A program made the position numbers and the translations under genes. From Anaerolineae bacterium (lineage in GTDB: Bacteria > Chloroflexota > Anaerolineae > Aggregatilineales > Phototrophicaceae), in assembly GCA_022841825.1 (NCBI GenBank), contig JALHQT010000003.1, forward strand, positions 186,001-250,000: a stretch of 64,000 nucleotides of DNA, given 5' to 3'. Below are positions 14,842 to 63,807 of the stretch, piece by piece. The notes under the pieces were generated by a model. It worked only from the letters and a program-made list of their open reading frames with translations. It did not search any database and was not told the origin of the DNA. The number at the start of each line of letters is the position of its first letter. Position 1 is the first letter of the stretch.

Positions 14842-16860
14842 ATGTGTGGCATTGTGGGCATGGTCGATATGCGCGGGCATGGGCGGGCGGATGAGGCGCG
14901 CGTCCGGCAGATGGCGGCGGCGATCCGCCATCGCGGACCCGACGGCGATGGCTTCTTCTCCACGCCCGATGTCGCGCTGGGGATGCGCCGCCTGAGCATC
15001 ATCGACGTGATGGGCAGCGACCAGCCGCTCTACAACGAAGACCGAACGCTGGCGCTCGTCTTCAACGGCGAAATCTACAACTACCGCGAACTGCGCGAGG
15101 GATTGGCGGCGCGCGGGCACCGCTTTCACACGGCGGGCGATGGCGAGACGATCCTGCATCTGTACGAGGAATGCGGCTTGGATCTGTTCGCGCAGCTTCG
15201 CGGCATGTATGCCATTGCGCTGTGGGACAGCACCCGCGCCCGGCTGGTCGTCGCCGTCGATCACATCGGCATGAAACCACTCTATCTGCACGAACGCGAT
15301 GGCATGACGTACTTCGCCAGCGAGGTCAAGGCGCTGGCAGCGGTGGGTGCGCCGGAGCGCGCCCTCAACCTGGAGACGCTCGATACCTACCTTTCGTTCG
15401 GTTATATGATCGGCGAGGAGACGCTCTTCGCGGGGGTGCGACGGCTCATGCCGGGGCACGCCTTGGTCATCGAAGGCGGCGCGGCGAAGACGGTGAAATA
15501 CGGCAATCCGGGCACCCCTACGGGCGATCCTGTAGGGACAGGGCATGCCCTGTCCGCAATGTCTGCGAATGGAGTGGACGCGGTAGGGCGGACGAGGCGC
15601 GCCTCGTCCCTACAGGAATCCTCTTCGCACCCCGCACCACGCACCCCGCACTCGCCAGAAGCAATCATCGCCGATGCTCGATCCCTCCTCCAGGCGTCCG
15701 TCCGCCTTCACCTGCGCAGCGATGTGCCGCTCGGCTTGTTCCTCAGCGGCGGCGTCGATTCGGCGGCGATGCTGGCGCTGATGACGCGCGAGGTGGGCGG
15801 GCGTGTGCTGACGTACACCGTCGGTTATGTGGGGGAGACGCCCGACAACGAACTGGAACAGGCGAAGCGCACGGCGGCGCACTTCGGCTCGCAGCATGTC
15901 GAGCGCATCATCACGCCCGACGACTGGTGGGATGCGCTGCCGCGCTACGTTGACCATCTCGACGAGCCGGTCGCCAATTCGTCGGCGGTCGCCCAAATGC
16001 TGCTGGCGGAGGAGACGGCGAAGCACGTCAAAGTGGTGTTGACTGGGCTGGGCGGCGATGAACTGTTCGGCGGCTATGCCAGTCATCGGATGATTCCCTG
16101 GTTGGTGCGGACGCACGAACGTCTGCGCGCCTTCGAGTGGTTCGCGGCTCCGCTCGGCGCGCTGGAGGCGCTCTACCCCCGCATGAAGAACTATCGTGTG
16201 ATCGGCGCGCTGCCGACGTACCTGCCACGCCTCCGGCAGGTGCTGCTGCCGGTCGCCGACGGCTTGCGACGGATGCTGTCGTATGATGGCATGGTCATGA
16301 GCGACGCGCTGCGGGGCGCATTCTACGGCGCGGATCTGCGGGCGGCGTGGGGGCGGGCGCAGCACAAGGAGCGGACGTTCGCGGGCATCCTGGCGCGGAG
16401 CTGGCACGACGATCCGGCGGATACCGCCCATGCACTGATCCAGAACACCTGGCTGCACGGCAACGCGCTGCTCTATTGCGACAAGGTGACGATGGCGCAT
16501 TCGCTGGAAGCGCGGGTGCCGTTCTTCGATCCGGTCATGCTGCGGTTCGCGGCGGAGACGCCGGTCGATGTGCGAATGCGCGGCAACAAGTACATCCTGC
16601 GCGAGGCGATGCGCCCGTACCTGCCGGATTTCGCGCTTGAACGCCCCAAGCAGCCCTTCAGCACGCCGATCCGCGGCTGGTTCGACACGACGCTGCGCTC
16701 GCGCATCGCCGAGGTGCTGTTGGATGGCGGCGCGCGCGTCCGCGCGTACTTCGACCGCGCTGGCTACGAGCGCCTCGTTCGCGCGCACATGGACGGGCGC
16801 GCCAAACACGAAGAAGTCATCCTCCGTCTGCTGCTGCTGGAGCTGTGGCTCAAACAATAG
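14842..16860 (+). CDS. asnB: asparagine synthase (glutamine-hydrolysing), with an in-frame repeat-derived insertion
   Basis: MCGIVGMVDMRG N-terminal Ntn-type GATase, SDVPLGLFLSGGVDSAAMLALM synthetase signature; extra residues approx. 15505-15657. Confidence 0.95.
   Translation: MCGIVGMVDMRGHGRADEARVRQMAAAIRHRGPDGDGFFSTPDVALGMRRLSIIDVMGSDQPLYNEDRTLALVFNGEIYNYRELREGLAARGHRFHTAGDGETILHLYEECGLDLFAQLRGMYAIALWDSTRARLVVAVDHIGMKPLYLHERDGMTYFASEVKALAAVGAPERALNLETLDTYLSFGYMIGEETLFAGVRRLMPGHALVIEGGAAKTVKYGNPGTPTGDPVGTGHALSAMSANGVDAVGRTRRASSLQESSSHPAPRTPHSPEAIIADARSLLQASVRLHLRSDVPLGLFLSGGVDSAAMLALMTREVGGRVLTYTVGYVGETPDNELEQAKRTAAHFGSQHVERIITPDDWWDALPRYVDHLDEPVANSSAVAQMLLAEETAKHVKVVLTGLGGDELFGGYASHRMIPWLVRTHERLRAFEWFAAPLGALEALYPRMKNYRVIGALPTYLPRLRQVLLPVADGLRRMLSYDGMVMSDALRGAFYGADLRAAWGRAQHKERTFAGILARSWHDDPADTAHALIQNTWLHGNALLYCDKVTMAHSLEARVPFFDPVMLRFAAETPVDVRMRGNKYILREAMRPYLPDFALERPKQPFSTPIRGWFDTTLRSRIAEVLLDGGARVRAYFDRAGYERLVRAHMDGRAKHEEVILRLLLLELWLKQ
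15531..15614. repeat. Two REP-like palindromes inside the asnB coding region
   Basis: TGTAGGGACAGGGCATGCCCTGTCC (15531-15555) and GTAGGGCGGACGAGGCGCGCCTCGTCCCTAC (15583-15613). Confidence 0.9.
16797..16850 (+). repeat. Direct repeat, copy 1 (3' end of asnB)
   Basis: GCGCGCCAAACACGAAGAAGTCATCCTCCGTCTGCTGCTGCTGGAGCTGTGGCT. Confidence 0.95.
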
Positions 16861-49226: not shown

Positions 49227-50396
49227 CTACCGGCTGACTCCCTGCACCATCACGCTGAAGGTGGCAGGCTCGCCGCCCAGCTCCGGGATGGCGACCTCGT
49301 AGCGCGCTCTCTCTCCCGGCGCGATCTGCGCCACGCCGACCTCCGCGAAGCCCGCCGCGATCACATTCTGCGCGGCGTCGAAGACCGTCACCACCACGCG
49401 CGGGCTTGCCGCCACCGTGTCGCCGATGTGCTCGATTTGCCCGCTGACGACGAAGCGCCCCAGTGCGTCGAAGCCTGATGTGTCCTCCGTGCGAAACTGC
49501 GCTTCCGAGACGAGCGCGCGCGCATCCGGCGCTGTCTCGCTCCCGCCCACCTGCACATCGAAGCGGACACTGCCCGGCGGCTGCCCCTGCCCAAAGCGCA
49601 GGCTGAACGGCGCGAATCCGCCCGGCAGGATGCCGTAGCCCATCGCTACATCTTCCGCGCCCGCCAGCACCCCGCCGTCCGCGCTCATCAGCACGGCGCG
49701 CACAGGCAGATCGACCAGTGTCGTGCCGCCGAAGTTGGCGACCTCACCCGTGATGAAGAAGACGCCGTCCGCTGTTGACCAGGCGTAGCTGTGGATGATG
49801 CCGATGCTCGCCGGGCGGGCGTTGGCGAGCGCTTCCACGCCGGACGCCTCCAGCGGCGCTGCGGGGTTGATGATGAACGAGTTGATGATTTGCTGCATCT
49901 GCGCCTGTTCACCTGCCGCAGCAGGCATGACAACCTCGATCAGCGCCAGGCGCTCGCCGCTGCGCTGAATGAAGGTATTCAGCGGCTCTGCCCCGCCGCC
50001 CGGCAGCGCCCGCGCGCCCGTCAACCGCCACGATCCATCGCCCATCGCCTGCCGACTGACCTCCACATAGCGCGTCACGTCGGGGCGAAGCTGCGTCTGC
50101 CAGCGGTCGAGCAGCGCGCCAAAGGCGTCGTCGCCCAACGTCGCGCCAAGGTTGACGACGGCGACCAGCAGTACCGGGTCGGTCTCGCCTGGGCGCGAAA
50201 AGGCGGTCGCGGCGAGCGTTGGCGCGTTCGTCTCGTAGAGTGCCCAGTTGCGCGGCGCGATGACGGTGAACGCCCCGCTGGGATGCGCGTAGGGCAGCGG
50301 CGAGAGGTCTGGCGGTGGTGGCGTCGGCGCGAAGACGACTGCATCGCCCGAACACCCGGTGAGCAGCAGGATGAGGAGGAAAAGGGCGGACGCCAT
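49227..50396 (-). CDS. putative lipoprotein, start codon inside a REP-like repeat
   Basis: MASALFLLILLLTGCSGD lipobox; downstream secreted-protein composition. Confidence 0.65.
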   Translation of the reverse strand: MASALFLLILLLTGCSGDAVVFAPTPPPPDLSPLPYAHPSGAFTVIAPRNWALYETNAPTLAATAFSRPGETDPVLLVAVVNLGATLGDDAFGALLDRWQTQLRPDVTRYVEVSRQAMGDGSWRLTGARALPGGGAEPLNTFIQRSGERLALIEVVMPAAAGEQAQMQQIINSFIINPAAPLEASGVEALANARPASIGIIHSYAWSTADGVFFITGEVANFGGTTLVDLPVRAVLMSADGGVLAGAEDVAMGYGILPGGFAPFSLRFGQGQPPGSVRFDVQVGGSETAPDARALVSEAQFRTEDTSGFDALGRFVVSGQIEHIGDTVAASPRVVVTVFDAAQNVIAAGFAEVGVAQIAPGERARYEVAIPELGGEPATFSVMVQGVSR

Positions 50397-50450
50397 GAAT
50401 GGCGTCCCTACACAAACGATTCCGTAGGGACGCCATTCATGGCGTCCGCC
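50385..50450. repeat. BIME-like pair of inverted REP-like hairpins
   Basis: GGCGGACGCCATGAATGGCGTCCCTAC - ACAAACGATTCC - GTAGGGACGCCATTCATGGCGTCCGCC, perfect 27-nt inverted arms. Confidence 0.95.
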
Positions 50451-50564
50451 GTCTGGAAGAGGGTTAGACGTAAACATCATGTCCGCAATTGGAGCGCAGG
50501 ACGGGCGCGGATGCAATACGAAATGCGGTAAAATATGGCGTATGAAGTGGAGAGGACATAGGTC

Positions 50565-62779: not shown

Positions 62780-62930
62780 GCTGGAAGCTCAAAGCTTCCA
62801 GCTTGAAGGGTGGAAAAGCCTCTCGAAGAGGCTCCAGAGATTTTCTCATGTCGAAAGTACGGGTTAGAGAGCCGCTTCAGCGGCTTTCGACTGGGCTTGT
62901 AGCCTGAAGCTTTGAGCTTCAGGCGGCGAA
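62780..62930. repeat. Multi-hairpin intergenic repeat (family D), copy 2
   Basis: GCTGGAAGCTCAAAGCTTCCAGC, AGCCTCTCGAAGAGGCT, AGCCGCTTCAGCGGCT, GCCTGAAGCTTTGAGCTTCAGGC in series. Confidence 0.88.
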
Positions 62931-63723: not shown

Positions 63724-63807
63724 GAGTGCGAAGTGCGTGGTGCGAAACAACAGGCATCGAAATGTAGGGGCGCAATACATTGCGCCCCTACTTCGCACCA
63801 CGCACTC
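63724..63807. repeat. Nested repeat: REP-like hairpin inside a family B inverted repeat
   Basis: AAGTGCGTGGTGCGAA ... [GTAGGGGCGCAATACATTGCGCCCCTAC 63764-63791] TTCGCACCACGCACTC. Confidence 0.92.

Follow-up and report, generated by a model that had tools for sequence, protein, structure and literature searches.

An in-frame composite of GTAG-type REPs in the interdomain linker of an asnB-type gene from an Anaerolineae bacterium

The window, that is, the whole 64,000-nucleotide stretch of an Anaerolineae genome analyzed here, contains on the forward strand, at positions 14842-16860, an uninterrupted open frame of 672 amino acids, in which the peptide quoted in an earlier, sequence-only reading of this DNA was recovered. 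The protein scores well above the curated cut-off of TIGR01536 (419 vs 267 bits) and contains two Pfam domains, both whole: the glutaminase domain (GATase_7, residues 33-166; 14938-15339, +) and the asparagine-synthase (ATP-PPase) domain (Asn_synthase, residues 279-671; 15676-16854, +). The catalytic motifs, Cys2 of the glutaminase and SGGVDS of the synthetase, are invariant between this protein and its relatives, in agreement with the earlier description of an open frame with intact flanking motifs. By its domain content, the product is a class II glutamine amidotransferase of the asparagine synthase family. This asnB-type assignment holds at the family level and is putative as to the exact substrate because TIGR03108 outscores TIGR01536 on this protein, yet stays below its own cut-off, and the closest fold is that of the hydroxyamidotransferase TsnB9, with E. 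coli AsnB second.

Comparison with two sister species, G013 and G002, yielded dN/dS values of 0.14-0.36 in the domains flanking the linker, which, by this measure, are under constraint. For the synthetase part, the values between the window gene and the sisters (0.24-0.36) exceed that between the sisters themselves (0.20), so that some relaxation of constraint on this part of the window protein is possible. The codon-usage score of the gene is strong, and several further asnB-family genes are present in the genome.

The repeat-derived segment of the linker (15505-15657, +; about residues 222-272) was delineated from the orthologue alignment, an AlphaFold2 model and a predicted RNA hairpin. It includes two perfect 20-bp palindromes, GGACAGGGCATGCCCTGTCC at 15536-15555 and GGACGAGGCGCGCCTCGTCC at 15590-15609, and a CGCACNN tract, all as described in the sequence-only reading; the GTAGGG/CCCTAC feet, however, do not bracket the palindromes as that reading had it, because GTAG (15532-15535) and CTAC (15610-15613) each occur on one side only. 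The palindrome search and the genome census described below thus delineate unit 1 (15532-15555, +) as GTAG followed by GGACAGGGCATGCCCTGTCC, read as VGTGHALS, and unit 2 (15590-15613, -) as GGACGAGGCGCGCCTCGTCC followed by CTAC, read as RTRRASSLQ, with many more copies of the latter in the genome. Unit 2 has a double foot only loosely, via an extra GTAGGG that precedes it (15583-15588, +; GTAGGGCGGACGAGGCGCGCCTCGTCCCTAC is listed there). On the left, CCCTAC (15516-15521, -) is separated from the next GTAG by 10 nt, and because this distance matches the foot-to-foot spacing of other dimers (10-19 nt), it is probably the remnant foot of a third, 5'-truncated unit. The four CGCACNN heptads (15626-15653, +) lie on the foot side of unit 2. 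In the predicted RNA hairpin, units 1 and 2 pair with each other, and the folding energy of 15505-15657 is -71.2 kcal/mol (z -2.7). An Rfam search returned no match, and a literature search with the palindrome string gave unrelated matches only.

To place these units in their genomic context, we surveyed 1.25 Mb of fetched stretches of the same genome, with genes called by a simple home-made ORF caller based on codon usage (~88% of the sequence coding). GTAG-footed palindromes are greatly overrepresented in this sample, with 165 instances compared to 6-38 for seven control feet, and 98 of the 165 are intergenic; likewise, CGCACNNCGCAC occurs 203 times on both strands, compared to 18 for the reversed control string. 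A BLAST search of 15505-15657 against its own genome detected about 70 further matches, several of which span both palindrome and heptads. Heptads adjoin the foot side of the REP in 18 of the 148 GTAGGG units and never occur there in the opposite orientation. Close pairs of REPs in the sample are predominantly inverted (34 of 38): 23 are arranged foot-to-foot, most often 12 nt apart, and 11 stem-to-stem; the other 4 pairs are tandem. Given the GTAG at one end of each short palindrome (15532-15555 and 15590-15613), the high copy number, the mostly intergenic location and the frequent inverted pairs, the linker unit is, by anatomy and distribution, a GTAG-type REP in a BIME-like dimer. The modules at 63724-63807, with which the insert had been equated, are of the same class, with heptads and a double-foot palindrome, but the stem is different.

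In the orthologue alignment, the distance between the FAGVRR and VPLGLF motifs is 105 residues in the window protein, 81 and 79 residues in G013 and G002, respectively, and 65-75 residues in most other members of the order; both sisters lack the insert and any dispersed GTAG repeat at the linker. Relatives conserve a native YWxFG... stretch that is missing from the window protein. A tree built without the linker groups the window gene with those of G013 and G002 (97/93). On this comparison, the insert is lineage-specific and replaced native linker residues rather than being purely added, which is why the net gain over the sister species is about 24 amino acids and not the roughly 50 extra residues originally proposed. 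No orthologue was found to have an equally long, conserved linker free of palindromes. An AlphaFold2 model built with a 24-row alignment is mostly confident in both domains, and the longest low-confidence stretch (pLDDT < 50), at residues 226-266, coincides with the insert, with two short further ones at 451-459; the insert is predicted to be a disordered segment. Together, the alignment, the tree, the census and the structure model bear out the core of the sequence-only reading, namely, that a composite of intergenic repeat modules is tolerated in frame at a domain boundary.

The asnB insert is not a one-off, given that many other genes of the genome contain such units and the orthologous linkers of other genera have been struck as well. 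About a third of the GTAGGG units in the 1.25-Mb sample (49 of 148) lie wholly within predicted genes, and 23, in 15 genes, are located deep inside; N-terminal cases were excluded from the latter count because start calls may be wrong. One N-terminal case lies in the window itself, a foot-to-foot REP dimer within the first 45 codons of the ORF at 49227-50516 (-), the true start of which may be downstream. Several REP-encoded peptides recur (VGTRHASS, ADEARLVPT, ADAINGVPT, GRHEWRPY, VGATHGSPL). All 18 sense units are read in one or other of the two frames in which the TAG within the foot is not a stop codon, whereas antisense units use all three frames; for the sense units, this appears to be what is expected of survivors. 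Among the host genes are GuaA, PhnI, an aldehyde dehydrogenase, HypF and QueG; in QueG, the Fe-S and HEAT parts flank the REP. HypF (L158:1842-4481) harbors three in-frame units, one cluster of which is located in the Kae1-like domain, with the repeat PSLYTERGAGGE.

Most AsnB orthologues have a shorter linker without a palindrome. At the orthologous linker of G036, G064 and G074, however, there are GTAG palindromes with intact feet and stems, and partly decayed ones are present in G022 and G035. These five relatives belong to another clade than the window gene, and the palindrome is read in a different frame, so the window insertion is, on this evidence, independent of theirs. Among the five, the palindrome is read in one frame, and an RPY-type end is common to most, so that their REPs may descend from a single insertion. 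Two more linkers contain repeats of other kinds, a CCCTC..GAGGG repeat with 36 genomic matches in G004 and a GCCAAG repeat with a few genomic matches in G067. Across 18 genomes, 4 exact-pattern matches in the linker were observed against 0.03 expected from copy number and genome size; under the assumption of random placement, recurrence remains significant without the window genome and with G064 and G074 counted once (P ~ 3e-4). The G064 genome (~6 Mb) carries 759 GTAGGG..CCCTAC palindromes of many stem families, far above the other relatives tested.

A second shared address is found in GMP synthase. In GuaA of the window genome (G000:C2:42342-44015, equivalent to L134:2342-4015), an in-frame REP directly precedes the nucleophile motif GICYGMQ, and REP units occupy the loop just before this motif in G064 and G074 as well. 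When the syntenic blocks around asnB and guaA are compared between the latter two species, the sole palindrome of each species sits at the shared site; for either gene, its distance from the conserved 3' sequence is equal in the two species and the 3' junction is identical, but the stems, all perfect or near-perfect, differ: GCGAACCGTCGGTTCGC in G064 and GAGGGTCTGAGACCCTC in G074 for asnB, and GACATGATATATCGTGTC and GAGGGTCTCAGACCCTC, respectively, for guaA. In G074, a single stem family accounts for the local copies. For these two sites, a small number from one species pair, stem renewal at a fixed address would be the simplest account, with reinsertion at permissive sites being a possible alternative. 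Because site and 3' junction are shared in both genes while the stems are not, we tentatively consider a broader reading, to which we give somewhat less than even weight, that in this bacterial family REPs hold fixed addresses in core enzymes over the long term, with their stems repeatedly swapped for the current family of the genome in a process resembling gene conversion. If so, the coding position would be kept while the encoded peptide is exchanged.

The palindromic elements (RPEs) of Rickettsia, such as RPE-1, which had been offered as the precedent, are longer than 24-bp units and form defined Rickettsia families. The likeness is that palindromic repeat DNA is inserted in frame and translated; the unit here, in contrast, is a 24-bp GTAG REP that forms composites in another phylum. 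RPEs are not the closest comparison, and we set this reading aside because the description of GTAG REPs (GTAG foot, short palindrome, inverted dimers) fits better. GTAG REPs consist of a foot and a short palindrome, occur as singles or inverted dimers and are mostly intergenic, a minority being in frame inside genes and encoding some 20-80 residues; linkers and loops have been proposed as tolerated sites, and in recB of two Xanthomonas species, REPs were found at the same site (Di Nocera et al. 2013, PMC3733652). The elements described here share the foot and palindrome, the dimers and the in-frame minority with these REPs, but constitute an Anaerolineae family with heptad tracts on the foot side, and their AsnB and GuaA addresses are shared across lineages with different stems. 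In-frame REP insertions have also been reported in tnpAREP genes, along with "double foot" REPs with GTAG...CTAC (PMC6006769). Frame preservation and double-foot units (here GTAGGG...CCCTAC) are common to both systems, but the hosts here are metabolic enzymes, and a matching transposase was not found beside this palindrome type. As in BIMEs and REPINs, inverted pairs fold together in two preferred arrangements; the differences are the near-perfect palindromic stems and the heptad tracts beside some pairs. In-frame GTAG REPs, both single and dimeric, and a same-site case, recB, are already published; the new aspects are the recurrent AsnB and GuaA addresses with their apparent stem turnover and the heptad-bearing composite.

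The linker is very probably an in-frame GTAG REP composite that replaced an unconstrained part of the native linker and persists, as a disordered translated loop, because it is harmless. A composite consisting of a truncated unit followed by a GTAG...CTAC dimer, potentially a single long hairpin, together with the heptad tract, would have been inserted in frame, presumably by a single-strand mechanism of the RAYT (REP-associated tyrosine transposase) type, in place of a portion of the native linker that joins the glutaminase domain to the synthetase domain and is free of sequence constraint. The insert would now be translated into a disordered loop. As it preserves the frame and has no stop codon, it would, at this position, do no harm to the enzyme and would be close to neutral, one of many such insertions to have survived in this REP-rich genome.

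Alternatively, the insert could be retained by selection, either because the hairpin or a slow stretch pauses ribosomes and aids co-translational folding, or because the peptide itself has a role. The position between two domains and the strong hairpin are compatible with this possibility, as are the perfect palindromes with differing stems that several genera carry at this linker and that would not be preserved under neutral decay alone. We nevertheless consider it unlikely: renewal by gene conversion accounts equally well for the intact palindromes, the encoded peptides vary between species, GuaA and other genes hold units away from domain boundaries, and most orthologues do without a palindrome in their shorter linkers. 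Even less probable is that the gene is decaying, with the insert being an early lesion of a pseudogene the work of which is done by paralogues. The other asnB-family genes, the loss of the conserved YWxF linker motif and the somewhat higher dN/dS toward the window gene than between the sisters would fit such decay, but the frame is fully open, the catalytic motifs are invariant, dN/dS is well under 1 and the codon-usage score is strong. That the linker is native and its palindromes result from chance or codon bias hardly deserves any weight, even in a GC-rich genome, because the segment combines a heptad tract with two GTAG-footed perfect palindromes of 20 bp, all from dispersed families, the sisters lack them, and the census contradicts this explanation.

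The case shows that, in a family of environmental bacteria, repeat DNA regularly supplies new segments of protein, and the core-enzyme sites where such segments arise can be named in advance. The recurrent AsnB and GuaA sites offer a directly testable system for REP insertion, stem renewal and protein tolerance, and the asnB insert clearly exemplifies a route from repeats to protein that is known but has received little study.

Published work points to RAYT/TnpAREP enzymes as probably mobilizing GTAG REPs (PMC3733652, PMC6006769), and a RAYT flanked by REPs of the same type is frequent, but absent from some genomes with GTAG REPs (PMC3733652). A search for such linkage in the window genome and ten relatives identified no clear partner. 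The window genome has five Y1_Tnp genes: none is closely flanked by GTAGGG units, and two are flanked by palindromes of a different family, GTAGCC/GTAGCT. In G064, a GTAGGGGCACGG unit lies about 100 bp or less from each of the two short Y1_Tnp genes, a proximity that is suggestive only, given the 759 palindrome copies in that genome. A RAYT-type mover of the linker REPs is therefore putative. Separately, the Y1_Tnp gene at L078:2539-2955 is flanked by GTAGCCTTAGGTTTCCAACCTAAGGC-type palindromes, which constitute a second REP family, with this gene as its likely RAYT; at position 62898 of the window, there is a similar palindrome. Beside this gene, at L078:1504-2316, there is a TPR-like ORF region that is seemingly broken by several repeats.
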